From NCBI GenBank assembly GCA_947650365.1, contig CANTAL010000100.1:248001-312000 (forward strand): a DNA stretch of 64,000 bases, written 5' to 3'. A program made the translations under genes and the position numbers. Origin of the DNA: Chamaelirium japonicum. Lineage: Eukaryota > Streptophyta > Magnoliopsida > Liliales > Melanthiaceae. Shown in pieces: positions 1,166 to 63,252 of the stretch; the stretch's first letter is position 1; every line of letters starts with the position of its first letter. The notes beneath the pieces were generated by a model. It was given only the letters and a program-made list of their open reading frames with translations, ran no database searches and was not told the DNA's origin.

Positions 1166-2031
1166 TATGAAAGAATTAGAATGGATCGTCCGAACGAATT
1201 AGAATGGATCGTATATTCGTGCAAATAAATTAGAATGGATCGTACAAATGGCTAAGAATGGATCATACGAATGAATTTGAATGGAACGTACGAATGAATT
1301 AGAATGGATCGAACGAATGAATTAGAATGGATCGTGCGAATGAATTGTAAAGGTTACATTCGTGTGAATGAATTAGAATGGATCGTGAAAATGAATTAGA
1401 ATGGATCATACGAATGAATTAGAATGGATCGTGCGAATGAATTTGAATGGATCTTGTGAATGAATTAGAATGGATCATACGAATGAATTAGAATGGATCC
1501 TGCGAATGAATTAGAATGGATCGTACGAATGGATTAGAATGGATCGTACGAATGGATTAGAATGGATCGTACGAATAAATTAGAATGGATCGTACGAATG
1601 AATTAGAATGGATCATGCGAATGAATTAGAATGGATCGTACGACTAAATTAGAATGGATACATTCGAGCGAATGAATTAGAATGGATCGTACGAATGAAT
1701 TAGAATGGATACATTCGAGCGAATGAATTAGAATGGATCGTATGAATGAATTAGAATGGATCATAGGAATGAATTAGAATGGATCGTGCGAATGGATCGT
1801 ACGAATGGATCGTACGAATGAATTAGAATGGATCATACGTTTGAATTAGATTGGATTGTGCGAATGAATTAGAATGGATACATTCTAGCGAATAAATTAG
1901 AATGGATCGATATCGTGCAAATGGATTAGACTGGATCGTACGAATGGATTAGAATGCATCGTATGAATGGATTAGAATGGATCGTACGAATGAATTAGAA
2001 TGGATCATACAAATGAATTAGAATGGATCAT
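1165..2031 (+). repeat. Satellite block, + orientation
   Basis: Tandem '+' monomers. Near 1,206 lies the uncommon variant with GTATATTCGTGCAAAT, which recurs at about 20,109, 22,856, 59,626, 61,155, 61,866 and 62,646. The block ends at 2,031 in a recurrent + to - junction (family J1). Confidence 0.95.
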
Positions 2032-2228
2032 ACGATCCATTCTAATTCATTCGTCCGATCCATTCTAATTTATTCGCACGAATGTATCCATTCTAATTCA
2101 TTCGTACAATCCACTCTAATTCATTCGCACGATCCATTCTAATTCATTCGTATGATCCATTCTAATTCATTCCTATAATCTATTCTAAATCATTCGTTGG
2201 AATGTATCCATCCTAATTCATTCGTTCG
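2031..2228 (-). repeat. Satellite block, - orientation, carrying HOR-1
   Basis: An inverted block of about 0.2 kb with the HOR-1 monomer order: a CGTCCGATCC monomer, CGCACGAATG, GTACAATCC, CGCACGATCC, CGTATGATCC, then CCTATAATCT. The following '+' block starts inside CGATCGTACGAATG. Confidence 0.9.
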
Positions 2229-2938
2229 ATCGTACGAATGAATTATAATGGATCGTATGAATGAATTAAAATCGATACATTCAAGCGAATGAATTAGATT
2301 GGATAAATTCAAGCGAATGAATTATAATGGATCGTACGAATGAATTAGAATGGATCGTACGAATGGATTAGAATGGATCGTGCGAATGAATTAGAATGGA
2401 TCGTACAAATGAATTAGAATGGATCGTATGAACGAATTAGAATGGATCGTACAAATGAATTAGAAAGGATACATTCATACGAATGAATTAGAATGGATCG
2501 TACGAATGGTTTCATTCGTGCGAATAAAGTAGAATCGATCGTACGAATGAATTAGAATGGATCGTGCAAATGAATTAGAATTGATCATACGAATGAATTA
2601 TAATGGATCGTACGAATGAATTAGAATGGATACATATATTCATGCGAATGAATTAGAATGGATCATGCAAATGAATTAGAATGGATACATTCGTGCGAAT
2701 GAATTAGAATCGATCGTAGGAATGAATTAGAATGGATCGTGCAAATGAATTAGAATGGATACATTCGTGCGAATGAATTAGAATGGATCGTAGGAATGAA
2801 TTAGAATGGATCGTACGAATAAATTAGAATGGTTACATTTGTGCGAATGAATTAGAATGGATCGTACGAATGAATTAGAATGGATCGTACGAATGAATTA
2901 GAATGGATACATTCATGCAAATGAATTAGAATGGATGA
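2228..2938 (+). repeat. Satellite block, + orientation
   Basis: Tandem '+' monomers mixing 23- and 28-bp units. The recurrent order GTAGG, GTGCAAATG, GATACATTCGTGC appears twice at about 2,700-2,800. The block ends near 2,938 at GGATGAATCGATTC, which is not the usual CGTACG-centred switch. Confidence 0.93.
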
Positions 2939-4125
2939 ATCGATTCTAATTCATTTGCACGAATATACGATCCATTCTAATTCATTCGCACAAATGTATC
3001 AATTCTAATTCATTCGTACGATCCATTCTAATTCATTCGTACGATTTATTCTAATTCATTCGCACGATCCATTCTAATTCATTCCTACGATCTATTCTAA
3101 TTCATTCGCTCGAATGTATCCATTCTAATTCATTCGTTCGATCCATTCTAATTCATTCGTACGATCCATTCAAATTCATTCGCATGATCCATTCTAATTC
3201 ATTCGTACGATCCATTCTAATCCATTCATACGATCCATTCTAATCCATTCGTACGATCCATTCTAATTCATTCGTACGATCCATTCTAATTCATTCGCAC
3301 GATCCATTCTAATTCATTCGTACGATCCATTCTAATTCATTCGCTCGAATGTATCCATTCTAATTCATTCTAATTCATTCGAATGATACATTCTAATGCA
3401 TTCGTATGATTCATTCTAATTCATTCGTACGATCCATTCTAATTCATTCGTACGATCTAATTCTAATCTATTCGTACGATCCATTCTAATTCGCACAAAT
3501 GTATCCATTTTAATTCATTCGTACGATCCATTCTAATTTATTCATACGATCCATTCTTATTCATTCGTACGATCCATTCTAATTCATTCGCATGAATATA
3601 TCCATTCTAATTCATTCGTATGATCTATTCTAATTTATTCGCACGATCTATTCTAATTCATTCGTACGATTCATTCTAATTCATTCGTACGATCCATTCT
3701 AATTCATTCGCACATCCATTGTAATTTATTCGTACGATCCATTCTAATTCATTCCTATGATCCATTCTAATTCATTCGCACGAATGTATCTATTCTAATT
3801 CATTTGCACGATCCATTCTAATTCATTCCTATGATCCATTCTAATTTATTCGTACGATCCATTCTAATTCATTCGCTTGAATGTATCCATTCTAATTCAT
3901 TCGTACGATCCATTTTATTTCATTCGTACGATCCATTCTAATTCATTCGTATGATCCATTCTAATTTATTCGTTCAAATATATCCATTCTAATTCATTCG
4001 TATGATCCATTCTAATTCATTCACACGATCCATTCTAATTCATTCGTACGATCCATTCTAATTGATTCGTATGATCAATTCTAATGCATTCGTACAATCC
4101 ATTCTAATTCAGTCGTATGAATGTA
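2938..4125 (-). repeat. Satellite block, - orientation
   Basis: Tandem '-' monomers. The start carries TTTGCACGAATATACG, the reverse form of the GTATATTCGTGCAAAT variant. An HOR-1 copy lies at about 3,061-3,230. The block ends at ATGTATCATACGAATG, a junction also seen near 13,413. Confidence 0.95.
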
Positions 4126-7624: not shown

Positions 7625-8151
7625 GAATGAATTAGAACGGATCGTACGAATGGATTAGAATGGATCGTACGAATGGATTAGAATGGATCGTACGAATGAA
7701 TTAGAATGGATCGTACAAATGAATTAGAAAGGTTACATTTGTGTGCGTATGAATTAGAATGGATCGTACGAATGAATTAGAATGCATCGTGCGAATGAAT
7801 TAGAATAGATCGTATGAATAAATTAGAATGGATCGTACAAATGAATTAAAACGGATATATTTGAGCGAATGAATTAGAATGGATCGTACAAATGAATTAG
7901 AATGGATCGAACGAATGAATTAGAATGGATCGTACGAATGAATTAGAATGGATCGTACGAATGAATTAGAATGGATACATTCGTGCGAATGAATTAGAAT
8001 AGATCGTACGAATGCATTATAATGGATCGTACGAATGAATTATAATGGATACATTCGTACGAATGAATTATAATGAATACATTCGTGCGAATGAATTATA
8101 ATGGATACATTCGTGCGAACGCATTGTACGAATGAATTAGATTGCATCGTA
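7624..8151 (+). repeat. Satellite block, + orientation
   Basis: Tandem '+' monomers. Its end (about 8,020-8,120) has several ATTATAATG monomers that are rare elsewhere, then GAACGCATTG and ATTGCATCGTACG leading into a + to - palindromic switch (family J2). Confidence 0.95.
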
Positions 8152-8472
8152 CGATCCATTCTAATTCATTCGCACAAATGTATCCATTCTAATTCATTCG
8201 CTCGAATGTATCCATTTTAATTCATTCGTACGATCCATTCTAATTCATTCGTACAATCTAATTCATTCGTACAATCCATTCTAATTCATTCGTACGATCT
8301 ATTCTAATTCATTCGCACGAATGTATCCATTCTAATTCATTCGTACGATCCATTCTAATTCGTTCATACGATCCATTCTAATTCATTCGTACGAATAAAT
8401 TAGAATGGATAGATTCATGCAAATGAATTAGAATAGATCATACGAATGAGTTAGAATGGATCGTACGAATGG
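8003..8472. repeat. 470-bp tandem duplication, copy 1
   Basis: First copy of a 470-bp unit that contains '+', '-' and '+' segments, so both strand switches (8,151 and 8,393) lie inside the repeat unit. Markers GCATTGTACG at 8,121 and AGATTCATGC at 8,411 recur exactly 470 bp later. The first ~100 bp, made of ATTATAATG monomers, is shuffled relative to copy 2, so the left limit is approximate. Confidence 0.85.
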
Positions 8473-8942
8473 ATCGTACGAATGAATTATAATGAATACA
8501 TTCGTGCGAATGAATTATAATGGATCGTACGAATGAATTATAATGGATACATTCGTACGAATGAATTAGAATGGATACATTCGTGCGAACGCATTGTACG
8601 AATGAATTAGATTGCATCGTACGATCCATTCTAATTCATTCGCACAAATGTATCCATTCTAATTCATTCGCTCGAATGTATCCATTTTAATTCATTCGTA
8701 CGATCCATTCTAATTCATTCGTACAATCTAATTCATTCGTACAATCCATTCTAATTCATTCGTACGATCTATTCTAATTCATTCGCACGAAAGTATCCAT
8801 TCTAATTCATTCGTACGATCCATTCTAATTCGTTCATACGATCCATTCTAATTCATTCGTACGAATAAATTAGAATGGATAGATTCATGCAAATGAATTA
8901 GAATAGATCATACGAATGAGTTAGAATGGATCGTACGAATGG
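8473..8942. repeat. 470-bp tandem duplication, copy 2
   Basis: Second copy of the 470-bp unit, with switches at 8,621 and 8,863. Only a few differences from copy 1 are visible, for example GAATG to GAAAG near 8,790. A diverged third copy lies at about 38,450-38,770. A 63-codon minus-strand open frame at 8,438-8,629 is satellite read-through spanning the switch. Confidence 0.85.
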
Positions 8943-9191
8943 ATTAGAATTAGATCGTACAAATGAATTAGAATGGATCGTACAAATGAATTAGAATGAA
9001 TCATATTCTAATTCATTCGCACGATCCATTCTAATTCATTCGCATGAATGTATCCATTTTAATTCATTTGCACGATCCATTCTAATTCATTCCTATGATC
9101 CATTCTAATTCATTCGTACGATCCATTCTAATTCATTCGCTCGAATGTATCCATTCTAATTCATTCGTACGATTCATTCTAATTTATTCGA
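8863..9191. repeat. Short alternating satellite blocks
   Basis: '+' at about 8,863-9,005 and '-' at about 9,005-9,191. The switch at 9,005 has the form ATGAATCATATTCTAATTC and is matched at about 38,898 (family J4). The '-' part carries the TTTGCACGATCC, CCTATGATCC, CGCTCGAATG order of module HOR-2. Confidence 0.9.
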
Positions 9192-10446
9192 GCGAATGGA
9201 TCGTACGAATGGATTAGAATGGATCGTACAAATGAATTAGAAATGTTTCATTCGTGAGAATGAATTAGAATGGATCGTACGAATGAATTAGAATGGATCG
9301 AACGAATGAACTAGAATGGATCGTGCAAATGAATTAGAATGGATACATTCATGCGAATGAATTAGAATGGATCGTGCGAATGAATTAGAATGGATCATAC
9401 GAATGGATTAGAATGGATCGTACGAATGGATTAGAACGCATTGTACGAATGAATTAGAATGGATCGTACAAATGAATTAGATTGGATACATTCGTGCGAA
9501 TGAATTAGAATTGATTGTACGAATGAACAAATGAATAAGAAAGGTTATATTCGTGAGAATGAATTAAAATGGATCGTACGAATGAATTAGAATGGATCAT
9601 ACGAAAGAATTTGAACGGATTGTACGAATAAATTAGAATGGATCGAACAAATGAATTAGAATGAATCATACGAATGAATTAGAATAGATCGTAGAAATGA
9701 ATTAGAATGGATCATACGAATGAATTAGAATGGATCGTGCGAACGAATTAGAATGGATCGTATGAACGAATTAGAATGGATCGTACGAACGAATTAGAAT
9801 GGATCGTACGAATGAATTAGAATGGATATATTCGTGCGACTGAATTAGATTGCATCGTACGAATGAATTTGGAAGGATCGTACAAATGAATTAGAAAGGT
9901 TACATTTGTGAGAATGAATTAGAATGGATCGTACGAATGAATTAGAATGGATCGTACGAATGGATTAGAATGGATCGTGCGAATGAATTAGAAAGGATCG
10001 TACGAATGAATTAGAATGGATATATTCGTGCGAATGAATTAGATTGCATCGTACGAATGAATTAGAATGGATATATTCGTGCGAATGAATTAGATTGCAT
10101 CGTACGAATGAATTAGAATGGATCGTACAAATGAATTAGAAAGGTTACATTTGTGAGAATGAATTAGAATTGATCGTACGAATGAATTAGAATGGATCGT
10201 ACGATTGGATTAGAATGGATCGTACGAATGGATTAGAATGGATCGAACGAATGAATTAGAAAGGTTACATTCGTGAGAATGAATTAGAATGGATCGTACG
10301 AATGAATTAGAATGGATCATGCGAATGAATTTGAATGGATCGTACAAATGAATTAGAATGGATAGTGCGAATGAATTAGAATGGATCGTACGAATGAATT
10401 AGAATGGATAGTGCGAATGAATTAGAATGGATCGTACGAATGATAC
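9191..10446 (+). repeat. Satellite block, + orientation
   Basis: Tandem '+' monomers, with AAAGGTTACATT variants at about 9,240, 9,540, 9,890, 10,135 and 10,258. From about 9,395 onward it belongs to a 2.2-kb segmental duplication also present at about 24,777. It ends at 10,446 in ATGATACGATCC, shared with 25,776 (J12). Confidence 0.95.
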
Positions 10447-11625
10447 GATCCATTCTTATTCGTTCATACGATCCATTCTAATTCGTTCGTACGATCCATT
10501 CTAATTCGTTCGTACGATCCTAATTCATTCGTACGATCCATTCTTATTCATTCGCACGATCCATTCTAATTTATTCGTACGATCCATTCTAATTCATTCG
10601 TACGATCTATTCTAATTCATTCGCATGATCCATTATAATTCATTCGTACGATCCATTCTAATTCATTCTTACGAATGTAACCATTCTAATTCATTCGTTC
10701 AATCCATTCTAATTCATTTGCATGATTCATTCTAATTCATTCGTATGATCCATTCTAATTCATTCCTACGATCTATTCTAATTCATTCGCTCGAATGTAT
10801 CCATTCTAATTCATTCGTTCGATCCATTCTAATTCATTCGTACGATCCATTCAAATTCATTCGCATAATCCATTCTAATTCATTCATACGATCCATTCTA
10901 ATCCATTCGTACGATCCATTCTAATTCATTCGTACGATCCATTCTAATCCATTCGTACGATCCATTCTAATCCATTCGTACGATCCATTCTAATTCATTC
11001 GTATGATCCATTCTAATTCATTCGCACGAATGTATCCATTCTAATTCATTCGTACAATCCATTCTAATTCATTCGCACGATCCATTCTAATTCATTCGTA
11101 TGATACATTCTAATTCATTCCTACGATCTATTCTAATTTATTCGCTCGAATGTATCCATTCGAATTCATTCGCACAATCCATTCTAATTCATTCGTACGA
11201 TCCGAACGATCCATTCTAATTCATTCGCTCGAATGTATCCATTCTAATTTATTCGTACGATCCATTCTAATTCATTCGTATGATCCATTCTAATTCATTC
11301 TCACGAATGTAACCTTTCTAATTCATTTGTATGATCCATTCTAATTCATTCGTACGAATGAATTTGAATGGATCGTACGAATGAATTAGAATAGATCGTA
11401 CGAATGAATTAGAATGGATCGTACGAATAAATTAGAATGGATCGTGCGAAAGAATTAGAATGGATCGTGCGAATGAATTAGAATGGATACATTTGAGCGA
11501 ATGAATTGGAATGGATCGTACAGATCGTATGAATGAATTAGAATGGATCGTGCGAATGAATTTGAATGGATCATGCGAATGAATTAGAATGGACCGTACG
11601 AATGAATTAGAATAGATCGTGCGAA
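9395..11625. repeat. Segmental duplication A, copy 1 (about 2.2 kb)
   Basis: Matches about 24,777-26,956 in the same monomer order, including two strand switches (10,446 and 11,356) and odd motifs such as GAACAAATGAATAAG and CATTCGAATTCATTCG. The offset is 15,382 at 9,434 but 15,331 from 10,441 on. This copy has one extra 51-bp unit (23+28 bp) at about 10,030-10,100. Confidence 0.9.
10446..11356 (-). repeat. Satellite block, - orientation
   Basis: Starts with CTTATTCGTTCATACG. It has an HOR-1 copy at about 10,720-10,880 and a short irregular point, GATCCGAACGATCC, near 11,202. It ends with the CTCACGAATGTAACC variant and a switch (J5) followed by GAATTTGAATGG. Confidence 0.95.
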
Positions 11626-14091: not shown

Positions 14092-14463
14092 ACCGTGGTC
14101 CATATCCTGTCCCACTTTGGAGAGGATATCAGCTGGCTGATTCCCTTCTCTCAGAATATGAGTAATTTGAAAGTGCCTAAACTGATTCAGCTTCTTCTGA
14201 ATATACTAAACTTGATGATAACAGTTCCAAGGGGTAGAATTAATGTTTTTAATATAGTTCACAGCTAAAAGAGAATCAGATTCAATCCATAACTGAGAGA
14301 TATTCAGATTTTCTGCATAAGTCAGTCCCTGCTCTATACCCTCTAATTCAACTTCAGCTATTTGCTCATGCCTAGATGGACCACAGTAACTCAAAATATC
14401 CTGGCCTTCAGAGTTTCTAAATATACCTCCAATCGAAGTATTATTCTCTTTAACAGCCCCATC
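14092..14463 (-). pseudogene. RNase H-like domain fragment of plant retrotransposon type, with one stop
   Basis: This is the only coding-like DNA in the window. Read on the minus strand from 14,463, one frame runs the full insert length of about 123 codons and starts with DGAVKENN. It looks like a type-1 RNase H domain of the plant 'RVT_3' kind, which cuts the RNA strand of RNA-DNA hybrids and is found at the end of many plant LINEs and in related host genes. Likely metal-binding acids are Asp1 (DGA), Glu39 (VELEGIEQGL), Asp63 (WIESDSLL) and Asp112 (HILREGNQPADILSK). The usual family residue three after Glu39 is Ala; here it is Gly42. Codon 86 (14,206-14,208) is TAG, and the frame stays recognisable after it, so this is a decayed copy. 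The residues before Asp1 are missing; the domain normally has a first beta strand there. No ATG starts it: the 62-residue open frame at 14,206-14,394 would begin at TTG, inside the domain. I see no poly-A, promoter or target-site duplication. Satellite orientation is '+' on the left and '-' on the right. Confidence 0.85.
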
Positions 14464-18780: not shown

Positions 18781-19838
18781 TATCCATTCTAAATCATTCG
18801 TACGATCCATGCTAATTCGTTCATATGATCCATTCTAATTCGTTCGTACGATCCATTCTAATTCGTTCGCACGATCCATTCTAATTCGTTCGCACGATCC
18901 ATTCTAATTCATTCGGACGATCCATTCTAATCCATTCGCACGATCCATTCTAATCCATTCGTACGATCCATTCTAATCCATTCGTACGATCCATTCTAAT
19001 TCATTCGCACAATCCATTCTAATTAATTTGTACGATCCATTCTAATTCATTCGTATGATCTATTTTAACTCATTCGGTGGATCCATTCTAATTCATTCGT
19101 ACGATCCATTCTAATTCATTCGCACGATCTATTCTAACTCATTCGTACGATCTATTCTAATTCATTCTCACAAATGCAACCTTTCTAATTCATTTGTACG
19201 AGCCATTCTAATTCATTCGTACGATCCATTATAATTCATTCGTACGATTCATTCTAATTCATTCGCTCGAATGTATCCATTCTAATTCATTCGTACGATC
19301 CATTCTAATTCATTCGCACGATCCATTCTAATTCATTCGCACGATCCATTCTTATTCAGTCGTATGATCCATTCTAATTTATTCCTACGATCTATTCTAA
19401 TTCATTCGCTCGAATGTATCCATTCTAATTCATTCGTACGATCCATTCTTATTCATTCGTACGATCCATTCAAATTCATTCGCATGATCCATTCTAATTC
19501 ATTCGTACGATCCATTCTAATTCATTCTCACGAATGTAACCTTTCTAATTCATTTGTATGATCCATTCTAATTCATTCGCACGATCCATTCTAATTCATT
19601 TGTACGATCTATTCTAATTCATTCGCACGATCCATTCTAATTCATTCGTACGATCGATTCTAATTCATTCGCACGATCTATTCTAATTCATTCGTATGAT
19701 CCATTCTAATTCATTCGTACGATCCATTCTAATTCATGCATACGATCCATTCTTATTCATTCGTACGATCCACTCAAATTCATTCGCACGATCCATTCTA
19801 ATTCATTCGTACGATCCATTCTAATTCATTCGCACGAT
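18780..19838 (-). repeat. Satellite block, - orientation
   Basis: Carries GTTCGCACGATCC monomers at about 18,850-18,900, the CATTCGGTGGATCC variant at about 19,073 and a good HOR-1 copy at about 19,340-19,570. An open frame at 19,364-19,561 is that copy read through and is not a gene. It switches at CGCACGATTAGAATGG. Confidence 0.95.
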
Positions 19839-22800
19839 TAGAATGGATTGTACAAATGAATTAGAATGGATCATATGAATGAATTTGAATGGTTACATTC
19901 GTGCGAATGAATTAGAATAGATCGTACGAATGAATTAGAATGGATCGTACGAATGAATTAGAATATCTCATACGAATGAATTAGAATGAATCGTACGAAT
20001 GAATTAGAATGGTTACATTCGTGCGAATGAATTAGAATAGATCATACAAATGAATTAAAATGGATCGTACGAATGAATTGGAATGGATACATTTGTGCGA
20101 ATGAATTAGAATGGATCGTATATTCGTGCAAATAAATTAGAATGGATCGTACAAATGAATTAGAATGGATCGTACGAATGAGTTAGAACGGATCGTGCGA
20201 ATTAATTAGAATGGATCGTATGAATGAATTAGAATGGATCCACCGAATGAGTTAGAATGGATCGTAGGAATGAATTAGAATGGATCGTACGAATGAATTA
20301 GAATGGTTACATTCGTGCAAAAAAATTAGAATGGATCGTATGAACGAATTAGAATGGATCGTACGAATGAATTAGAATGGATCGTACAAATGAATTAGAA
20401 TGGATCGTACGAATGAATTAGAATGGATACATTCGTGCGAATGAATTAGAATGGATCGTACGAATGAATTAGAATGGATCATACGAATGAATTAGACTGG
20501 ATCGTACGAATGGGTTAGAATGGATTGTGCGAATGGATTAGAATGGATCGTGCGAATGAACTAGAATGGATCGTACGTATGAATTAGAATGGATCATATG
20601 AATGAATTAGAATGGATCGTGCGAATGAATTAGAATGGATTTACGAATGAATTAGAATGGATCGTACGAATAAATTAGAATGGATCGTACAAATGAATTA
20701 GAATGGATCGCTCGAATGTATCATACGAATGAATTAGAATGGATACATTCGAGCGAATGAATTAGAATGGATCATACGAATGAATTAGAATGGATTATAG
20801 GAATGAATTAGAAAGGTTACATTCGTGAGAATGAATTAGAATGGATCGTACGAACGAATTAGAATGGATACATTCGAGCGAATGAATTATAATGGATCGT
20901 ACGAATGAATTAGAATGGATCATAGGAAAGAATTAGAATGGATCGTGCAAATGAATTAGAATGGATACATTCGTGCGAATGAATTAGAATGGATCAAAGG
21001 AATGAATTAGAATGGATCGTACGAATGAATTAGAATGGTTACATTCGTGCGAATGAATTAGAATGGATCGTACGAATGGATTAGAATGGATCGTACGAAT
21101 GAATTAGAATGGATCGTACAAATAAATTAGAAAGGTTACATTTGTGAGAATGAATTAGAATGGATCGTACGAATGAATTAGAATGGATCGTACGAATGGA
21201 TTAGATTGGATCATATGAATGAATTAAAATGGATCGTACGAATGCATTAGAATGGATACATTCGTGCGAATGAATTAGAATGGATCGTACGAATGAATTA
21301 GAATGGATCGTGCGAATGAATTAGAATGGATCGTACGAATGAATTAGAATGGATCGTGCGAATGAATTAGAATGGATCGTACGAATGAATTAGAATGGAT
21401 ACATTTGTGCGAATGAATTAGAATGGATCGTACGAATGAATTAGAATGGATCATACGAATGAATTAGAATGGATCGTACAAATGAATTAGAATGGATACA
21501 TTTGTGCGATGAATAAGAATGGAGCGTACGAATGAACTTGAATGGATACATTCGTGCGAATGAATTAGAATGGATCATATGAAAGAATTAGAATGGACCG
21601 TGCGAATGAATTAGAAAGGATCGTACAAATGAATTAGAATGGATATATTCATGCTAATGAATTAGAATGGATCGTACAAATGAATTAGACTGGATCCTAC
21701 GAATAAATTAGAATGGATACATTCATGCAAATGAATTAGAATGGATCGTACGAATGAATTAGAATGGATCATATGAATGAATTAGAATGGATCGTACGAA
21801 TGAATTAGAATGGATCATATGAATGAATTAGAATGGTTACAATCGTGCGAATGAATTAGAATGGATCGTATGAATGGATTAGAATGGATCATACGAATGG
21901 ATTAGAACGCATTATACGAATGAATTAGAATAGATACATTTGTGCGAATGAATTAGATTGCATCGTACAAATGAATTTGAATGGATTGTACGAATGAATT
22001 AGAATGGATCGTACGAATGAATTAGAATGGATACATTCGTGCGAATGAATTAGAATGGATCGTAGGAATGAATTAGAATGGATCGTACGAATGAATTAGA
22101 ATGGTTGCATTCGTGCGAATGACTTAGAATGGATAATACGAATGGATTAGAATGGATCGTATGAATGGATTTGAATGGATCGTACGAATGAATTAGAATG
22201 GATCGTACAAATGAATCAGAAAGGTTACATTTGTGAGAATGAATTAGAATGGATCGTACGAATGGATTAGAATGGATCGTACGAATGAATTAGAATGGAT
22301 CGTACCAATGAACTAGAAAGGTTACATTTGTGATAATGAATTAGAATGGATCGTACGAATGAATTAGAATGGATCATACGAATGTATTAGAATGGATCGT
22401 ACGAATGAATTAGAATGGATCATACGAATACATTAGAATGGATACATTCGTGGGAATAAATTAGAATGGATCGTACGAATGAATTAGAATGGATCGTGCG
22501 AATGAATTAGAATGGATCGTACGAATGAATTAGAATGGATCGTGCGAATGAATTAGAATGGATCGTACAAATGAATTAGAATGGACACATTTGTACGAAA
22601 ACGAATAAATTAGAATGGATCATACGAATGAGTTAGAATGGATCGTACGAATGAATTAGAATGGATCGTGCGAATGAATTAGAATCGATCGTACGAATGA
22701 ATTAGAATGGATCGTACGAATGAATTAGATCGTACGAATGAATTAGAATGGATCGTACGAATGAATTAAAATGGATACATTTATACGACTGAATTAGAAT

Positions 22801-24198: not shown

Positions 24199-25776
24199 GA
24201 ATGAATTAGAATGGATCGTACGAATGGATTAGATGGATCGTGCGAATGAATTAGAATGAATCGTACGAACGAATTAGAATGGATCGTACGAACGAACTAG
24301 AATGGATCGTACGAATGAATTAGAATGGATACATTCGAGCGAATGAATTAGAATGGATCGTACGAATGAATTAGAATGGATCATAGGAGTGAATTAGAAT
24401 GGTTCGTACGAATGGATTAGAACGTATTGTACGAATGAATTAGAATGGATCGTACAAATGAATTAGAATGGATACATTCGTGCGAATGAATTAGAATGGA
24501 TCGTACGAATGAATTAGAATGGATCGTGCGAATGAATTAGAATGGATAGTGCGAATGAATTAGAATGGATCGTACGAATGAACTAGAATAGACACATTCG
24601 TGCGAATGAATTAGAATGAATCATACGAATGAATTAGAATGGATTGTACGAATGAATTAGAATGGATCGTACGAATGAATCGTACGAATGGATTAGAATG
24701 GATCGTACGAATGAATTAGAATGGTTCATACAAATGAATTAGAAAGGTTACATTCGTGTGAATGAATTAGAATGGATTGTATGAATGGATTAGAATGGAT
24801 CGTACGAATGGATTAGAACGCATTGTACGAAAGAATTAGAATGGATCGTACAAATGAATTAGAATGGATACATTTGTGCGAATGAATTAGAATTGATTGT
24901 ACGTATGAACAAATGAATAAGAAAGGTTACATTCGTGAGAATGAATTAAAATGGATCATACGAATGAATTAGAATGGATCATACGAATGAATTTGAATGG
25001 ATTGTACGAATAAATTAGAATGGATCGAACAAATGAATTAGAATGAATCATACGAATGAATTAGAATAGATCATAGGAATGAATTAGAATGGATCATACG
25101 AATGAATTAGAATGGATCGTGCGAACGAATTAGAATGGATCGTACGAACGAATTAGAATGGATCGTACGAACGAATTAGAATGGATCGTACGAATGAATT
25201 AGAATGGATATATTCGTGCGACTGAATTAGATTGCATCGTACGAATGAATTTGGAAGGATCGTACAAATGAATTAGAAAGGTTACATTTGTGAGAATGAA
25301 TTAGAATGGATCGTACGAATGAATTAGAATGGATCGTACGAATGGATTAGAATGGATCGTGCGAATGAATTAGAAAGGATCGTACGAATGAATTAGAATG
25401 GATATATTCGTGCGAATGAATTAGATTGCATCGTACGAATGAATTTGAATGGATCGTACAAATGAATTAGAAAGGTTACATTTGTGAGAATGAATTAGAA
25501 TGGATCGTACGAAGGAATTAGAATGGATCGTACGAGTGGATTAGAATGGATCGTACGAATGGATTAGAATGGATCGAACGAATGAATTAGAAAGGTTACA
25601 TTCGTGAGAATGAATTAGAATGGATCGTACGAATGAATTAGAATGGATCATGCGAATGAATTTGAATGGATCGTACAAATGAATTAGAATGGATAGTGCG
25701 AATGAATTAGAATGGATCTTACGAATGAATTAGAATGGATAGTGCGAATGAATTAGAATGGATCGTACGAATGATA
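24198..25776 (+). repeat. Satellite block, + orientation
   Basis: Begins with the J8-flanking order (GAATGGATTAG, GTGCG, then GAACGAATTAG monomers, then ACATTCGAGC at 24,331). One base is missing in a monomer at about 24,230. From about 24,777 it is duplication A copy 2. It ends at ATGATACGATCC. Confidence 0.95.
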
Positions 25777-26956
25777 CGATCCATTCTTATTCGTTCATAC
25801 GATCCATTCTAATTCATTCGTACGATCCATTCTAATTCGTTCGTACGATCCTAATTCATTCGTACGATCCATTCTTATTCATTCGCACGATCCATTCTAA
25901 TTTATTCGTACGATCCATTCTAATTCATTCGTACGATCTATTCTAATTCATTCGCATGATCCATTATAATTCATTCGTACGATCCATTCTAATTCATTCT
26001 TACGAATGTAACCATTCTAATTCATTCGTACAATCCATTCTAATTCATTTGCACGATTCATTCTAATTCATTCGTATGATCCATTCTAATTCATTCCTAC
26101 GATCTATTCTAATTCATTCGCTCGAATGTATCCATTCTAATTCATTCGTTCGATCCATTCTAATTCATTCGTACGATCCATTCAAATTCATTCGCATAAT
26201 CCATTCTAATTCATTCATACGATCCATTCTAATCCATTCGTACGATCCATTCTAATTCATTCGTACGATCCATTCTAATCCATTCGTACGATCCATTCTA
26301 ATCTATTCGTACGATCCATTCTAATTCATTCGTATGATCCATTCTAATTCATTCGCACGAATGTATCCATTCTAATTCATTCGTACAATCCATTCTAATT
26401 CATTCGCACGATCCATTCTAATTCAGTCGTATGATACATTCTAATTCATTCCTACGATCTATTCTAATTTATTCGCTCGAATGTATCCATTCGAATTCAT
26501 TCGCACAATCCAATCTAATTCATTCGTACGATCCGTACGATCCATTCTAATTCATTCGCTCGAATGTATCCATTATAATTCATTCGTACGATCCATTCTA
26601 ATTCATTCGTATGATCCATTCTAATTCATTCTCACGAATGTAACCTTTCTAATTCATTTGTATGATCCATTCTAATTCATTCGTACGAATCAATTTGAAT
26701 GGATCGTACGAATGAATTAGAATAGATCGTACGAATGAATTAGAATGGATCGTACGAATAAATTAGAATGGATCGTGCGAAAGAATTAGAATGGATCGTG
26801 CGAATGAATTAGAATGGATACATTCGAGCAAATGAATTGGAATGGATCGTACTGATCATATGAATGAATTAGAATGGATGTGCGAATGAATTTGAATGGA
26901 TCATGCGAATGAATTAGAATGGACCGTACGAATGAATTAGAATAGATCATAGGAAT
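24777..26956. repeat. Segmental duplication A, copy 2 (about 2.2 kb)
   Basis: Near-identical partner of about 9,395-11,625, including switches at 25,776 and 26,687. It lacks one 51-bp (23+28) unit present in copy 1, near 25,420. Right of about 26,956 the two copies diverge (AGATCATAGG here, AGATCGTGCG there). Confidence 0.9.
25776..26687 (-). repeat. Satellite block, - orientation
   Basis: Counterpart of 10,446-11,356. It holds HOR-1 at about 26,075-26,210 and GATCCGTACGATCC near 26,532, where copy 1 has GATCCGAACGATCC. It ends at junction J5. Confidence 0.95.
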
Positions 26957-27957
26957 GAATTAGAATGGATCGTGCAAATGAATTAGAATGGATACATTCG
27001 AGCGAATGAATTAGAATGGATCGTACGAATTAATAAGAATGGATCCACTCGTTCGTTCGATCCATTCTAATTTATTCGTACGATCCATTCTAATTCATTC
27101 GTACGATCCATTCTAATTCGTACGAATGAATTAGAATGGATCGTGCGAATGAATTAGAATGGATCGTACGAATGAATTAGAATGGATCGTACGAATGAAT
27201 TAGAATGGATCATAGGAATGAATTAGAATGGATCGTGCAAATGAATTAGAATGGATACATTCGAGCGAATGAATTAGAATGGATCGTACGAATTAATTAG
27301 AATGGATCCACCGAATGAGTTAGAATGGATCATACGAATGAATTAGAATATATCGTACGAATGAATTAGAATGGATCGTACGAATAAATTAGAATGGATT
27401 GTACGAATGAATTAGAAAGGTTACATTCGTGAGAATGAATTAGAATGGATCATACGAATGAATTAGAATGGATCATGCGAATGAATTTGAATGGATCATA
27501 CGAATGAATTAGAATGGATCGAATGAATGAATTAGAATGGATCGAACGAACGAATGGATCATGCGAATGAATTTGAATGGATCGTGCGAATGAATTAGAA
27601 TGGATCGTACGAATGAATTAGAATACTTCATGTGAATGAATAAGAATGGATCGTATGAATGAAATAAAATGGATCGTACGAATGGATTAGAATGGATCGT
27701 ACGAATGGATCATGTGAATGAATTAGATCGTGCGAATGAATTAGAATGGATCGTACGAATGGATTAGAATGGATTAGAATGGATCGTACGAATGAATTAG
27801 AATGGATCGTACAAATGAATTAGAAAGGTTACATTTGTAAGAATGAATTAGAATGGATCGTACGAATGAATTAGAATGGATCGTACGAATGGATTAGAAT
27901 GGATCGATCCATTCTAATTCAATCGCACGATCTATTCTAATTCAAATTCATTCGTAC
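26687..27957. repeat. Mainly + satellite with two tiny inversions
   Basis: '+' monomers interrupted by '-' at about 27,050-27,122 (about three monomers, entered at GGATCCACTCGTTCGTTCG) and '-' at about 27,905-27,957 (about two monomers, entered at GGATCGATCC). A GGATCCACCGAATGAG unit is at 27,305. The exit near 27,957 is junction J7. Confidence 0.92.
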
Positions 27958-38492: not shown

Positions 38493-39011
38493 GATCCATT
38501 CTAATTCATTCGTACGATCCATTCTAATTCATTCGCACAAATGTATCTATTCTAATTCATTCGCTCGAATGTATCCATTTTAATTCATTCGTACGATCCA
38601 TTCTAATTCATTTGTACAATCTAATTCATTCGTACAATCCATTCTAATTCATCGTACGATCTATTCTAATTCATTCGCACGAATGTATCCATTCTAATTC
38701 ATTCGTACGATCCATTCTAATTCGTTCGTACGATCCATTCTAATTCATTCGTACGAATAAATTAAAATAGATATATTCAAGCAAATGAATTAGAATGGAT
38801 CGTACGAATGAATTAGAATGGATCGTACGAATGGACTAGAATTAGATCGTACGAATGAATTAGAATGGATCGTACGAATGAATTAGAATGAATCATATTC
38901 TAATTCATTTGCACGATCCATTCTAATTCATTCCTATGATCCATTCTAATTCATTCGAACGATCCATTCTAATTCATTCGCTCGAATGTATCCATTCTAA
39001 TTCATTCCTAC
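38492..39011. repeat. Alternating blocks; diverged copy of the 470-bp unit
   Basis: '-' at about 38,492-38,753, '+' at about 38,753-38,898 and '-' at about 38,898-39,011. Switch sequences and order follow 8,151-9,191, including GTACAATCTAATTC (18-bp unit), CGTACGAATAAATT and ATGAATCATATTCTAATTC. There is no tandem doubling here. The last switch, CCTACGAATTAATT, is unique. Confidence 0.88.
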
Positions 39012-43952: not shown

Positions 43953-46900
43953 TCATTCTAATTCATTCGTACGATCCATTATAATGCATTCGTACGATTC
44001 ATTCTAATTCATTCGCACGATCCATTCTAATTCATTCGTACGATCCATTCTTATTCATTCATACGATCCATTCTAATTCATTCGCACAATCCATTCTAAT
44101 TCATTCGTATGATCCATTCTAATTCATTCGTATGATCCATTCTAACTCATTCGGTGGATCCATTCTAATTCATTTGTACGATCCATTCAAATTCATTCGC
44201 ACGAATGTATCAATTCTAATTCATTCGTACGATCCATTATTATTCATTCGTACGATTCATTCTAATTCATTCGCACGATCCATTCTAATTCATTCCTACG
44301 ATCTATTCTAATTCATTCACTCGAATGTATCCATTCTAATTCATTCGTTCAATCCATTCTAATTCATTCGCATGAACCATTATATTTCATTCGTACGATC
44401 CATTCTAATTCATTCTCACGAATGTAACCTTTCTAATTCATTTGTATGATCCATTCTAATTCATTCGTACGATCCATTCTAATCCATTCGTACGATCCAT
44501 TCTAATCCTTTCGTACGATCCATTCTAATCCATTCGTACGATCCATTCTAATTCATTCTCACAAATGTAACCTTTCTAATTCATTTGTACGATCCATTCT
44601 AATTCATTCGTGCGATCCATTCTAATTCATTCGTATGATCCATTCTAATTCATTCGTACGATCCATTGTAATTCATTCATACAATCCATTCAGATTCATT
44701 CGCACAAATGTATCCATTCAAATTCATTCGTATGATCCAGTCTAATTCATTCATACGATCCATTCTAATTCATTCGCACGAATATATCCATTCTAATTCA
44801 TTCGTACGATCCATTCTAATTCATTCGTACGATCCATTCTAATTCATTCGTACGATCCATTCTAATTCGTTCGTACGATGTAATTCATTCGTACGATCCA
44901 TTCTAATTCATTCGTACGATCGATTCTAATTCATTCGCACGATCCATTCTAATTCATTCGTACGATCCATTCTAATTCATACGTATGATCCATTCTAATT
45001 TATTCATTCAAATATATCCATTCTAATTCATTTGGACAATCCATTCTAATTCGTTCGCACAATCCATTCTAATTCATTCGCACGAATGTATCCATTCTAA
45101 TTCATTTGCACAATCCATTCTAATTCATTCCTATGATCCATTCTAATTCATTCGTACGATCCATTCTAATTCATTCGCTCGAATGTATCAATTCTAATTC
45201 ATTCGTACGATCCATTCTAATTCGTTCATACGATCCATTCTAATTTATTCGTACGATTCATTCTAATTCGTTCGTACGATCCATTCTAATTTATTCGTAC
45301 GATCCATTCTAATTTATTCCTATGATCTATTCTAATTCATTCGCTCGAATGTATCAATTCTAATTCATTCGTTCGATCCATTCTAATTCATTCGTACGAT
45401 CCATTCAAATTTATTCGCATGATCCATTCTAATTCATTCATACGATCCATTCTAATTCATTCTCACGAATGTAACCTTTCTAATTCATTTGTATGATCCA
45501 TTCTAATTCATTCGTACGATCCATTCTAATCCATTCGTACGATCCATTCTAATCCATTCATACGATCCATTCTAATCTATTCATACGATCCATTCTTATT
45601 TATTCTCACAAATGTAACCTTTCTAATTCATTCGTACGATCCATTCTAATCCATTCGTACGATCCATTCAAATCCATTCGTACGATCCAATCTAATTCAT
45701 TCGCACGAATGTAACCATTCTAATTCATTCGTACGATCCATTCTAATTCATTCCTACGATCTATTCTAATTCATTCGCACGAATGTATTCATTCATATTC
45801 ATTTGCACGATCCATTCTAATTCATTCCTATGATCCATTCTAATTCATTCGTACGATCCATTCTAATTCATTCTCACGAATGTAACCTTTCTAATTCATT
45901 TGTATGATCCATTCTAATTCATTCGTACGATCCATTCTAATCCATTCGTACGATCCATTCTAATCCATTCGTACGATCCATTCTAATCCATTCGTACGAT
46001 CCATTCTAATTCATTCGCTCAATCCATTCTAGTTCATTCGTACGATCCATTCTAATTCATTCTCACGAATGTAACCTTTCTAATTCATTTGTATGATCCA
46101 TTCTAATTCATTCGTACGATCCATATTAATCCATTCGTACGATCCATTCTAATCCATTCGTACGCTCCGTTCTAATCCATTCGTACGATCCGTTCTAATC
46201 CATTCGTACGATCCATTCTAATTCATTCTCACAAATGTAACCTTACTAATTCATTTGTACGATCCATTCTAATCCATTCGTACGATCCATTCTAATCCAT
46301 TCGTACGATCCATTCTTATTCATTCGCACGAATGTATCCATTCTAATTCATTCGTACGATCCATTCTAATCCATTAGTACGATCCATTCTAATTCATTCG
46401 TACAATGCGTTCTAATTCATTCGTACGATCCATTCTAATCCATTCATACAATCCATTCTAATTCATTCGCACGATGAATTCTAATTCATTCGCACGATCC
46501 ATTCTAATTCATTCGTACGATCCATTCTAATTCATTCGTACGATCCATTCTAATCCATTCGTACGATCCATTCTATTTCATTCGTACGATCCATTCTAAT
46601 TCATTCTCACAAATGTAACCTTTCTAATTCATTCGTACGATCCATTCAAATTCATTCGTACAATCCATTCTAATTCATTCGCACAAATGTATCCATTCTA
46701 ATTCATTCGAACGATCCATTCTAATTCATTCTCACGAATGTAACGTTTCTAATTCATTTGTATGATCCATTCTAACTCATTCGTACGATCCATTCTAATT
46801 CATTCTCACAAATGTAACCTTTCTAATTCATTTGTACGATCCATTCTAATTCATTCGTACGATCCATTCTAATCCATTCGTATGATCCATTCTAATCCAT

Positions 46901-47048
46901 TCGTACGATCCATTCTAATTCATTTGTATGATCCATTCAAATTCATTCGCATGATCCATTCTAATTCATTCGTACGATCTATTCTTATTCATCGCACAAA
47001 TGTATCCATTCTAATTCATTTGTACGATCCATTCTAATCCATTCGTAT
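43952..47048 (-). repeat. Long satellite block, - orientation
   Basis: 3.1 kb of '-' monomers, starting with J9 flanks and CATTCGGTGGATCC at about 44,150. HOR-1 copies lie at about 44,200-44,460 and 45,295-45,490, with HOR-2 at about 45,060-45,230 and 45,695-45,860. It is dense in CTCAC-AAATGTAACC units from 44,400 to 46,850, where they return every few hundred bases. It ends near 47,048 at CGTATAAATGAATT. Confidence 0.95.
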
Positions 47049-47678
47049 AAATGAATTAAAATGGATCGTACAAATGAATTAGAATGGATCGTACAAATGA
47101 ATTAGAAAAGTTACATTTGTGAGAATGAATTAGAATGGATCGTACGAATGAATTAGAATGGATCGTACGAATGGATTAGAAAGGATTAGACGAATGAATT
47201 AGAATGGATACATTCGAGCGAATGAATTAGAATGGATCGTAGGAATGAATTAGAATGGATCGTACGAATGAATTAGAATGGATACATTCGTGCGAATGAA
47301 TTAGAATAGATCGTACGAATGGATTAGAATGGATCGTACGAATGGATTAGAATAGATAGATTTGTGCGAATGAATTAGAATGGATTAGAACGAATGAATT
47401 AGAATGGATCGTACGAATGAATTAGAATGGATCGTACAAATGAATTAAAATGGATACATTTGTGCGGATGAATTAGAATGGATCGTACGAATGGATTAGA
47501 ATGGATCGTACGAATGTATCCATTCTAATTCATTCGTTTGAATTGAATGGATTGTACGAATGAATTAGAATGGATCGTACGAATGAATTAGAATGGATCA
47601 TGCGAATGAATTAGAATAGATCGTACGAATGAATTAGAATGGATCGTACGAATAAATGAATTAGAATGGATCGTACTA
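47048..47678 (+). repeat. Satellite block, + orientation, with one-monomer inversion
   Basis: '+' monomers with a single inverted monomer at about 47,516-47,538, flanked by CGAATGTATCC and CATTCGTTTGAATTG. It ends at CGTACTATTCATTC, a one-base variant of junction J9. Confidence 0.93.
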
Positions 47679-54600: not shown

Positions 54601-54624
54601 AATTCGTTCGTACGATCCATTCTA

Positions 54625-59081: not shown

Positions 59082-59456
59082 ATGAATTAGAATGGATCGT
59101 ATGAATGAATAAGAATGGATCGTACGAATGAATTAGAATGGATCGTGCGAATGAATTAGAATGAATCGTACGAATGCATTAGAATGGATACATTCGTGCG
59201 AATGAATTAGAATGGATCGTACGAATGAATTAGAATGGATCGTACGAACGAATTAGAATGGATCGTACGAACAAATTAGAATGGATCGTATGAACGAATT
59301 AGATTGGATCGTATGAATGAATTAGAATGGATCGTACAAATGAATTAGAAAGGTTACATTTGTGAGAATGAATTAGAATGGATCGTACGAAGGAATTCGA
59401 ATGGATCGTACGAATGGATTAGAATGGATCGTACGAATGAATTAGAATGGATCGTA

Positions 59457-59777
59457 CGAATGAATTAGAATAGCTCATACGAATGAGTTAGAATGAATCG
59501 TACGAATGAATTAGAATGGTTACATTCGTGCGAATGAATTAGAATAGATCATACGAATGAATTAGAATAGATCGTACGAATGAATTAGAATGGATACATT
59601 TGTGCGAATGAATTAGAATGGATCGTATATTCGTGCAAAGAAATTAGAATGGATCGTACAAATGAATTAGAATGGATCGTACGAATGAGTTTGAATAGAT
59701 CGTGCGAATGAATTAGAGTAGATCGTACGAATGAATTAGAATGGATCCACCGAATGAGTTAGAATAGATCATACGAA
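59457..59777 (+). repeat. Segment E, copy 2 of 3
   Basis: Same order as 19,950-20,270 at +39,507. AGCTCATACG is at 59,472 and GGATCCACCGAATGAG at 59,743. Confidence 0.88.
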
Positions 59778-61700
59778 TGAATTAGAATGGATCGTACGAA
59801 ATGAATTAGAATGGATTGTGCGAATGAATTAGAATGGATCGTATGAATGAATAAGAATGGATCGTACGAATGAATTAGAATGGATCATACGAATGAATTA
59901 GAATGGATCGTACGAGTGAATTAGAATGGATCATATGAATGAATAAGAATGGTGACATTCATTCGAATGAATTAGAATGGATCGTACGAATGGATTAGAA
60001 TGGATCGTACGAATGGATTAGAACGCATTGTACGAATGAATTAGAATAGATACATTGGTGCGAATGAATTAGATTGTATCGTACAAATGAATTTGAATAG
60101 ATTGTACGAATGAATTAGAATGGATCGTACGAATGAATTAGAATGGATCATGCGAATGAATTAGAATACATCGTACGAATGAATTAGAATGGATCGTACG
60201 AATAAATTATAATGGATCATGCGAATGAATTAGAATGGATTGTACGAATGAATTAGAATGGATCCACCGAATGAATTAGAATGGATCCACCGAATGAGTT
60301 AGAATGGATCGTGCGAATGAATTAGATTGCATCGTACGAATGAATTTGAATGGATTGTACGAATGAATTCGAATGGATCGTACGAATGAATTAGAATGGA
60401 TCATGCGAATGAATTAGAATAGATCGTATGAATGAATTAGAATGGATCGTACGAATAAATAAGAATGAATCGTACGAATGAATTAGAATAGATCGTACGA
60501 ATGGATTAGAATGGATACATTTGTACGAATAAATTAGAATGGATTGTACGAATGAATTAGAATGGTTTGTATGAATAAATTAGAACGGATCGTACGAATG
60601 AATTAGAATTGATCGCGCGAATGAATTAGAATGGATACATTCTTGCGAATGAATTTGAATGGATCGTACGAATGGATCTTACGAATGAATTAGAATGGAT
60701 CATACAAATGAATTAGAATGGATCATACGAATGAGTTAGAATGGATCGTGCGAATGAATTAGATTGGATCGTAGGAATGAATTAGAATGGATCCACCGAA
60801 TGAGTTAGAATGGATCAAACGAATGAATTAGAATGGATCGTACGAATGAATTAGAATGGATTGTGCGAATGAATTAGAATGGATCATATGAATGAATAAG
60901 AATGGATCGTACGAATGAATTAGAATGGATCGTGCGAATGAATTAGAATGAATCGTACGAATGCATTAGAATGGATACATTCGTGCGAATGAAATAGAAT
61001 GGATCGTACGAATGAATTAGAATGGATCGTGCGAATGAATTAGAATGAATCGTACGAATGAATTAGAATGGATCGTAGGAATGAATTAGAATGGATACAT
61101 TTGTACGAATAAATTAGAATGGATTGTACGAATGAATTAGAATGGATACATTCTTGCGAATAAATTAGAATGGATCGTATATTCGTGCAAATAAATTAGA
61201 ATGGATCATACGAATGAATTAGAATGGATCGTGCGAATGAATTAGAATGAATTGTATGAATACATTAGAATGGATCGTACGAATGAATTCGAATGGATCG
61301 TACGAATGAATTAGAATGGATCGTACAAATGAATTAGAATGGATCGTGCGAATGAGTTAGAATGGATACATTCGTGCGAATGAAGTTGAATGGATCGTAC
61401 GAATGAATTAGAATGGATCATAGGAATGAATTAGAATGGATCGTACAAATGAATTAGAATGGAAACATTCGTGCGAATGAATTAGAATGGATCGAAAGAA
61501 TGGATTAGAATGGATCGTACGAATGGATTAGAATGGATCATACGAATGAATTAGAATGGTTACATTTGTGAGAATGAGTTAGAATGGATCGCACAAATGA
61601 ATTAGAAAGGTTACATTTGTGAGAATGAGTTAGAATGGATCGTACGAATGAATTAGAATGGATTAGAATGGATCGTACGAATGAATTAGAATGGATCGTA

Positions 61701-62021
61701 TGAATGAATTAGAATAGCTCATACGAATGAATTAGAATGAATCGTACGAATGAATTAGAATGGTTACATTCGTGTGAATGAATTAGAATAGATCATACGA
61801 ATGAATTAGAATGGGTCGTACGAATGAATTAAAATGGATACATTTGTGCGAATGAATTAGAATGGATCGTATATTCGTGCAAATATACTAGAATGGATCG
61901 TACAAATGAATTAGAATGGATCGTACGAATAAGTTAGAATGGATCGTGCGAATGAATTAGAATGGATCGTACGAATAAATTAGAATGGATCCACCGAATG
62001 AGTTAGAATGGATCATACGAA
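61701..62021 (+). repeat. Segment E, copy 3 of 3
   Basis: Lies 2,244 bp after copy 2 with no net indel between markers (61,715 and 61,987). A partial fourth piece, GTATATTTGTGCAAATTAAT then GGATCCACCGAATGAG, is at about 62,640-62,715. Confidence 0.88.
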
Positions 62022-62921
62022 TGAATTAGAATGGATCGTGCGAATGAATTAGAATGAATCGTACGAATGCATTAGAATGGATACATTCGTGCGAATGGAT
62101 TAGAATGGATCGTGCGAATGAATTAGAATGAATCGTAAGAATGAATTAGAATGGATCGTATGAATGAATTAGAATGGATACATTTGTGCAAATAAATTAG
62201 AATGGATTGTACGAATGACTTAGAATGGATTGTATGAATAAATTAGAACGGATCGTACGAATGAATTAGAATTGATCATGCGAATGAATTAGAATTGATA
62301 CATTCTTGTGAATGAATTTGAATGGATCGTACGCATGAATTAGAATGGATCGTACGCATGAATTAGAATGGATCATGCGAATGAATTAGAATGGATTGTA
62401 CGAACGAATTAGAATGGATACATTTGTGCGATTGAATTAGAATGGATCGTGCGAATGAATTAGAATGGATCGTACGAATGAATTAGAATGGATATATTTA
62501 TGCGAATGAATTAGAATGGATCGAACGAAAGAATTAGAATTGATACATTTGTGCGAATGATTTAGAATAGATCCTACGAATGTATTTGAATGGATCATAC
62601 GAATGAATTAGAATGGATACATTTGTGCGAATGAATTAGAATGGATCGTATATTTGTGCAAATTAATTAGAATGGATCGTACGAATGAATTAGAATGGAT
62701 CCACCGAATGAGTTAGAATGGATCATACGAATGAATTAGAATGGATCGTACGAATAAATTAGAATGGATTGTGCGAATGAATTAGAATGGATCATATGAA
62801 TGAATAAGAATGGATCGTGCGAATAAATTAGAATGGATCATACGAATGAATCAGAATGGATCGTGCGAATGAATTTGAAACATTCGTGCGAATGAATTAG
62901 AATGAATTAGATTGCATCGTA

Positions 62922-63252
62922 CGATCAATTCTAATCCATTTGTACGATCCATTCTTATTCATTCATTCGATCCATTCTAATTCATTCGTACGATCCAATC
63001 TAATTCATTCGTATGATCCATTCTAACTCATTCGGTGGATCCATTCTAATTCATTCGTATGATCCATTCTAATTCATTCGCTCGAATGTATCCATTCTAA
63101 TTCATTCGTACGATCCATTCTAATTCGTTCGTACGATCCATTCTAATTCGTTCGTAAGATCCATTCTAATTCGTTCGCATGATCCATTCTAATTCATTCG
63201 CACGATCCATTCTAATTCATTCGCATGATCCATTCTAATTCATTCGTATGAT
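62922..63252 (-). repeat. Satellite block, - orientation
   Basis: About 14 '-' monomers with CATTCGGTGGATCC near 63,030 and three GTTCG-starting monomers at about 63,125-63,175. The exit, CGTATGATACATTCGTGCG, matches 30,042 (J11). Confidence 0.93.

Follow-up and report, generated by a model that had tools for sequence, protein, structure and literature searches.

The window analysed here, a 64,000-nucleotide stretch of Chamaelirium japonicum DNA (positions 248,001-312,000 of contig CANTAL010000100.1, in our numbering C112:248001-312000), is from end to end (1-64000) a tandem array of 23- and 28-bp monomers in mixed orientation, 47% of it in the + orientation. We found that the strand switches of this array recur by descent: pieces of the array have been copied in either orientation, both within the contig and between contigs of different chromosomes, and since a piece carries its switches along, many switches descend from a common original and make up dispersed families. 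In this neighbourhood it is not inversion that makes a piece amplify, because switch-free pieces are copied at least as often. The explanation that we favour, and hold to be probable, is a general copying of segments in which the switches travel as passengers, combined with a preferential birth of switches at a palindrome of the monomer.

Identity of the array and recurrence of its switches

Same-strand spacings of the monomer core in the window are dominated by 23 bp (n = 1996), followed by 28 bp (n = 460), and the 12-mer ATTCGTACGATC occurs 703 times when both strands are counted. The 23-bp consensus monomer contains the palindrome TCGTACGA and carries the 8-bp dyad and the 9-mer TTCGTACGA. 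In the accessible parts of the genome paper, Chio1/Chio2 of Chionographis japonica are described as 23- and 28-bp monomers with 8-bp dyad symmetry, arranged in mixed forward and reverse arrays and forming the centromere units on all 12 chromosomes (PMC10264360), and an excerpt of a second paper gives TTCGTACGA as common to the Chio and Chama satellites (PMC12722358). As the monomer lengths, the word TTCGTACGA and the mixture of forward and reverse arrays all agree, we take the repeat, with near certainty, to be Chio1/Chio2, which bears CENH3 in the holocentric plant Chionographis japonica.

Orientation in the window flips about every 0.9 kb. Switches were mapped by two segmentations, a scan with a 17-base core and a Viterbi segmentation on 10-mers, each of which returned 74 switches per 64 kb; the first 200 kb of the same contig (C112:1-200000) contain 190. 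The median block length is 457 bp in the window and 740 bp in C112:1-200000. A first-pass annotation of this DNA, made from the sequence alone, had listed 37 recurrent switch positions, and all 37 lie within 8 bp of a switch of the Viterbi map.

To group the switches we took 200 bp around each of the 263 switches of the window and C112:1-200000, compared both strands and clustered by single linkage at 0.95 identity, aligning 17,161 same-type pairs (at most three of the 263 lie in non-satellite stretches of C112, and these were excluded for the tract-end analysis only). This gave 154 clusters, of which 42 have at least two members and together hold 151 switches; the largest has 14. A sibling inside the window was found for 29 of its 74 switches (11 clusters), and a sibling in the window or C112:1-200000 for 44. 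Because in-phase flanks in such an array are alike anyway, these figures have to be read against a null. Chimeras made by randomly pairing the halves of different real junctions reached 0.94 in 0.05% of 6000 cases, with a maximum of 0.97, and random joins at CGTACG gave a median of 0.836 and a 99% quantile of 0.897 over 300 bp. An exhaustive ungapped search likewise found a copy of at least 96% identity in C112:1-200000 for 37 of 74 junction-centred 192-bp windows; three controls with shuffled monomers gave 0 of 74 each. With shuffled and chimeric controls near zero, the recurrence of switches by descent is real; flank similarity at matched junctions exceeds that of random positions, the opposite of what the first-pass annotation had named as the result that would speak against its families.

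That annotation had counted about a dozen families (J1 to J12), which agrees well with the 11 clusters of the window, although several memberships were wrong and opposite-strand siblings had been missed. Among its within-family pairs, 18 of 44 reach 0.92 over 200 bp. Four families hold whole: J5; J6, with the + to - switch at 12246 in a cluster of 8 (window members 12246, 22989 and 33865); J12, with the + to - switch at 10440 and 7 members in the window and C112:1-200000; and J8, a cluster of 11 to which 24196, 43329 and 56585 belong together with a missed inverted sibling at 59071. Within J1, 2031 and 4556 stay together, 30575 is borderline (0.89-0.905), 54855 lies at background (0.81-0.87) and 29683 falls into the cluster of J9. 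The latter is the 14-member cluster, with 16445, 29681, 43947 and 57399 in the window, so that J9 and part of J1 turn out to be siblings on opposite strands; 47678 (0.89-0.90) drops out of J9, as 51003 (0.88-0.90) does from the otherwise sound J3. For J2, 8151 and 8621 remain, 38492 is linked through an offset of one monomer and 62922 is at background (0.78-0.81). J4, J10 and J11 are borderline (0.90-0.91), J4 being rescued by its position inside a 94.5% duplicate, and J7 fails (0.75-0.78). Further siblings missed on the opposite strand are 13411 with 30042 (J11) and 17003 with 4123. Some of these switches sit in local duplications: a 470-bp tandem duplication at 8150-9001 holds the switch pairs 8150/8390 and 8620/8860 (J2, J3), followed by J4 at 9001, and 8617-9092 is found again at 38510-38979 (94.5%). 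The 1.76-kb segment 9958-11715 (+), with switches at 10440 and 11353, is duplicated at 25294-27045 (97.6%).

Copying of array segments with and without switches

Switch-bearing segments are also found far outside this contig. The 1.519-Gb assembly (3253 contigs, of which C4, C5, C6 and C12 measure 70-95 Mb) was searched with short queries; as the search scores 40 candidates per query, all copy numbers are lower bounds. For the J1 query 2000-2400, which holds two switches, at least 39 further full-length copies of 94-99% identity were found on at least 12 contigs. With the J12 query 10240-10640 the best 40 candidates, itself included, were all at 96% or above (7 contigs among the matches listed), and with the segment 38490-38890, which runs from the switch at 38490 to just before that at 38893 and spans the J3 switch at 38752, they were all at 97-100% (6 contigs among the matches listed, two of the matches beginning at query base 21 and one ending at 385). 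Four 401-bp queries were placed at switches without sibling in the window or C112:1-200000, and all four found copies: at least 23 at 90-97% for 19635-20035 (switch 19835), at least 8 at 98-99% for 46850-47250 (switch 47049), at least 39 at 90-94%, 16 of them without the last 20 bases or so, for 27730-28130 (switches 27904/27955), and at least 4 at 97-98%, plus one partial copy at 98% and one at 90%, for 62720-63120 (switch 62920). The earlier proposal that about half of all switches were inherited by duplication is thus supported, and the half is, if anything, low.

Copies may extend over several switches. A cassette at 342-2908 (+; 2.6 kb) with six switches (748, 980, 1045, 1163, 2032 and 2228) is found collinear on C12 at 96.9%. 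Its part 502-2908, as far as it overlaps with the loci compared, recurs on C165 (L002) at 97.8% and on C305 (L007) at 97.5%, and C4 holds it in two pieces (582-1747 at 94.7% and 1790-2908 at 94.3%).

The first-pass annotation had concluded that inversion-bearing segments are the units that amplify. This is not supported, since switch-free positions nearby are copied as often or more. Compared with C112:1-200000, 192-bp windows with a copy of at least 96% make up 37 of 74 at junctions and 891 of 1590 at junction-free positions; at 97% or more the figures are 22 of 74 and 692 of 1590. In a second test on pairs of flanks, which for switches and controls alike included five 10-kb samples of other contigs (L029-L033), 30 of 74 switches were found rejoined elsewhere, as were 25 of 57, 33 of 52, 36 of 53 and 28 of 53 rotated junction-free sites. 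Rotating the switch positions gave a deficit of copied junctions with P = 0.03, 0.24 and 0.02 at 95, 96 and 97% identity, respectively. Junctions are therefore copied slightly less than other positions, or equally. The switch density is 0.74-0.76 per kb within copied tracts and 1.0-1.16 per kb overall. In the comparison of the window with C112:1-200000, the ungapped, the flank-pair and the rotation tests reject the idea that segments with switches are preferentially amplified. The whole-genome searches were uneven for three switch-free controls: in one the 40th candidate was at 92%, in another the best non-self match was at 91%, and the third had at least 39 further copies of 94-98% on at least 21 contigs, its own included.

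The copied tracts themselves were collected at 94% identity or more, with a lower cut-off of 0.5 kb between the window and C112:1-200000 (36 tracts) and 0.7 kb within C112:1-200000 (34 tracts, two of them non-satellite); with these cut-offs the pieces range from 0.5 to 4 kb in the comparisons made. The medians are 1.1 kb and the maxima 2.9 and 3.7 kb, respectively, and 67% and 35% of the tracts are inverted. Switches are carried in 22 of the 36 window-C112 alignments. The tracts often stop at a switch that is present in one of the two copies: 24 of 70 ends (window-C112) and 30 of 67 (within C112:1-200000) have a switch of one copy no more than 12 bp away, none has one in both copies, and rotated controls give means of 3.5 (maximum 11, 200 rotations) and 3.2 (maximum 9, 100 rotations). 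The tract ends involve 35 different switches, of which 23 are members of families, 11 are singletons and one was left unclustered, so that older switches, too, are often places where homology ends. Two readings of these ends remain, namely that a change of orientation blocks strand exchange or that switches are fragile.

Directly beyond the six-switch cassette, the comparison with paralogues shows a block (2934-4123, -) that is inverted in the window relative to them. Past 2908, C12, C112:36-38 kb and the loci L003, L004, L005 and L007 continue in the + orientation, as the reverse complement of window 2885-4125 at 90-94%; L002 and L008 are collinear with C12 at the flipped block, and L006 stays with C12 for only some 0.5 kb past the cassette. 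From the end of the cassette through the block, C12 and C112:36-38 kb are 97.7% identical to each other. The block diverges from C12 by 4-8% in the un-inverted copies (L002-L005, L007 and L008) and by 6.6% in the window. In the C4, C5 and C6 copies (L030, L029 and L031) this block was not seen next to the cassette. A scan of all cross-joins of switch flanks for the un-inverted state was uninformative, since it gave as many joins at rotated control sites; the block described here, recognised among the paralogues of the cassette, is the single good case.

Several further duplications and insertions were observed. C112:156831-164126 is a 3.56-kb tandem duplication (99.25%) whose left edge falls on a strand switch and which lies inside one of the copies of a segmental duplication, about 22-26 kb long (C112:80.3-102.2 kb with 152.4-178.1 kb). 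Five different queries each hit C27 (about 1.79-2.23 Mb) in pairs that stand 276.3-276.8 kb apart and are of equal or near-equal identity, which could be a large tandem duplication or a duplication of the assembly. At 14092-14459 of the window, a non-satellite insert of about 370 bp separates a + block from a - block; on its reverse strand two stop-separated pieces match Pfam RVT_3 (RNase-H-like; E = 1.6e-12 and 4.6e-5), so that the insert has the appearance of a decayed retroelement fragment that became fixed in the array. Likewise, two direct repeats of 1.05 kb (C112:105891-106942 and 114270-115321; L019 and L020; 97.5% identity), 8.4 kb apart in a satellite-free stretch, look like the ends of a long terminal repeat (LTR) retrotransposon inside the array.

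Switches in register at the monomer palindrome

Joining at the switches frequently occurs in register at TCGTACGA, which is also the longest word common to the + and - monomer consensus. In 117 of the 263 switches the first opposite monomers are exactly 23 bases apart (60 of 132 + to - and 57 of 131 - to + switches), compared with 3.9% and 4.7% of random joins (1500 each). Exact CGTACG lies at the centre of 74 of these 117 (48 of 60 and 26 of 57); the + to - switch at 8148-8153 is an example. The excess is still seen when related switches are collapsed, in 59 of 154 clusters and in 41 of 112 singletons. The in-register switches show 37 distinct monomer-length contexts among the 60 and 34 among the 57, and the same monomer-length pattern is shared by 71 of 128 and 40 of 87 pairs within clusters and by 25 of 1642 and 21 of 1509 pairs between clusters. 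So many different contexts favour many origins, and new switches would thus keep arising, frequently by a head-to-head or tail-to-tail join of two monomers in register at this palindrome of the 23-bp consensus. The recombination step would be a short-homology inversion or a template switch at the palindrome.

Most switches are not recent fold-back duplications, as their arms are no more alike than unrelated ones: for switches with arms of 150 bp or more, the median arm identity is 0.840 in the window (43 switches) and 0.842 in C112:1-200000 (142 switches), with nulls of 0.842 and 0.843. Fold-back inverted duplication was accordingly rejected as the origin of most switches. Rare fold-back-like switches do occur: the arms at 41855 of the window are 95% reverse complements over 150 bp (84% for the median switch), and together with C112:123602, 52382 and 34876 (95-97% in all four) this switch is a candidate for a true fold-back palindrome. 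A second register, with a core spacing of 36, was observed in 24 of 131 - to + switches from 14 clusters (e.g. 4123, 13411, 17003 and 30041) and by eye does not appear to be centred on CGTACG. Also by eye, the spacer of the 28-bp monomer, CATTCGTGCGAATG, is a near-perfect palindrome resembling a - to + switch, and the 28-bp monomer could be the 23-bp form bearing a fossil micro-inversion.

Alternative explanations and related satellites

Four other explanations were weighed. That inversion-bearing segments are preferred for amplification, for instance because fragile head-to-head repeats start copying, would fit the many tracts that carry switches, the gathering of tract ends at switches and the abundance and youth of the segment 38490-38890, whose best 40 candidates are all at 97-100%, compared with 92% at the 40th candidate of one switch-free control. 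We nevertheless consider it unlikely, since switch-free positions were copied as often or more in the exhaustive and flank-pair tests against C112:1-200000, another switch-free control has at least 39 further copies of 94-98%, and switch density in copied tracts is below average. Convergence, i.e. independent inversions at the same palindrome of a low-diversity array, would draw on the strong preference for the palindrome register and on the high background of in-phase flanks (0.84 in the median, 0.90 at the 99% quantile over 300 bp), and it may explain some of the weaker groupings (J7, 54855, 62922, 51003 and 47678). As a general account it is very unlikely: 44 of 74 switches match a sibling at 0.95 or more over 200 bp with both flanks, switches of a cluster share their monomer-length order far more than others, and multi-switch cassettes recur with the same spacing.

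Selection could keep switch sites if the palindrome or loop had a structural role at the centromere, as suggested for Tribolium; conserved inversion sites have been reported in Tribolium madens (PMC13081366, in part), and Chio monomers are predicted to form hairpins according to the accessible text of PMC10264360. However, switch-centred windows have no more copies in C112:1-200000 than others, nor more of high identity, and 154 clusters in 264 kb are not a few fixed types, which makes selection more improbable still than convergence. Least probable of all, and close to negligible, is an assembly artefact, in which a repetitive contig would contain misjoins or haplotypes that were not merged. 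This region is difficult to assemble, and the paired hits on C27 may be real or an assembly duplication, but the HiFi libraries have mean lengths of 14-26 kb in the part of PMC10264360 at hand, so that a read, at roughly one switch per kb, should cross many of them; segments with switches are found on many contigs, diverged by 1-6%; and mixed forward and reverse arrays are reported by the authors of the genome themselves.

The explanation by passenger switches and birth at the palindrome has to stand against a number of observations that weigh against it. Its exhaustive comparison of junctions with junction-free positions sets the window against 200 kb of a single contig. The five 10-kb samples of other contigs favour junctions: at 96% they hold copies of 17 of the 74 junctions, compared with 230 of the 1590 junction-free windows. 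We give this result little weight because four of the five (L029-L032) had been picked for holding J1 copies. Of the 30 junctions rejoined in the flank-pair test, 3 have copies only in these samples. For the switch-free control whose best non-self match was at 91%, the genome search left out a known local copy (59367-59931, 92.3% over the whole query); the whole-genome searches therefore do not settle the comparison of switch-bearing with switch-free segments. At 11 of 54 tract-end events the nearest switch of the other copy belongs to the same family, so that some tract stops may be short local indels. The context to the right of the block 2934-4123 differs between copies, so that a simple inversion in place is not proven. 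As to the birth of switches, monomer-length contexts vary even inside clusters (only 71 of 128 and 40 of 87 pairs agree, as given above), and the cluster counts are upper bounds on independent origins, because copies of great age, worn down to the 84% background, no longer look related; the register excess could thus be due in part to ancient inheritance. Finally, Chama, the satellite of the sister genus, shares the 9-mer TTCGTACGA and yet has arrays in one orientation in the consulted part of PMC12722358, and the palindrome alone is therefore insufficient for switching.

Taken together, we still favour passenger switches with preferential birth at the palindrome; the copying step is likely to be interlocus gene conversion, unequal exchange or break-induced copying, and interlocus conversion has been proposed for the repeat as a whole in PMC10264360. 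The pattern noticed in the first-pass annotation is real and its grouping partly wrong, with a conclusion that reaches too far.

The nearest precedent that we found, in the accessible part of PMC13081366, are the conserved inversion sites INV_1a, INV_1b and INV_2 with macro-dyad symmetry in TmSat1 and TmSat2 of Tribolium madens. Both systems are satellites of changing orientation, the beetle's from likely (peri)centromeres, with recurrent families of inversion sites and junction-bounded cassettes, and inverted subarrays of one satellite are present in the window. The beetle sites are described as few types in very many copies, with diverged subunits at the site. Chio differs in having many types with few local copies each, about one switch per kb and many in-register joins at the palindrome; instead of a small set of highly conserved types we found 154 clusters among 263 switches in 264 kb, the largest with 14 members. 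The 117 in-register joins, 74 of them with exact CGTACG, would argue against diverged site-specific monomers for that class. The excerpts of the Chio paper (PMC10264360) describe the mixed orientation, but not switch families, the register of breakpoints or multi-switch cassettes, and no report of switch families was found in a search of the Chio literature at the level of excerpts and listings. Chama of Chamaelirium luteum, in turn, has a 60-bp monomer, consistently oriented arrays and long higher-order repeats in the part of PMC12722358 at hand.

Satellite arrays offer no landmarks, and it is therefore difficult to follow how they spread from one centromere to another. Such landmarks are supplied by switch junctions, whose two-sided flanks would rarely be mimicked by independent mutation; with their help we find multi-switch array pieces common to several chromosomes of a holocentric genome, a spread that its authors had only proposed. 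A sequence-level rule for the breakpoints is also indicated, which may be tested on reads and in related species. A quite possible, if still tentative, extension is that Chio is a self-inverting satellite, in which TCGTACGA is the dominant birthplace of switches, junctions are heritable barcodes and switches block further tract copying, so that inversion slows homogenisation. If this is true, switch junctions could serve to map how pieces of the centromere units spread over the holocentric chromosomes, and to date this spread, and inversion would keep the Chio arrays mosaic, where those of the sister genus are uniform.

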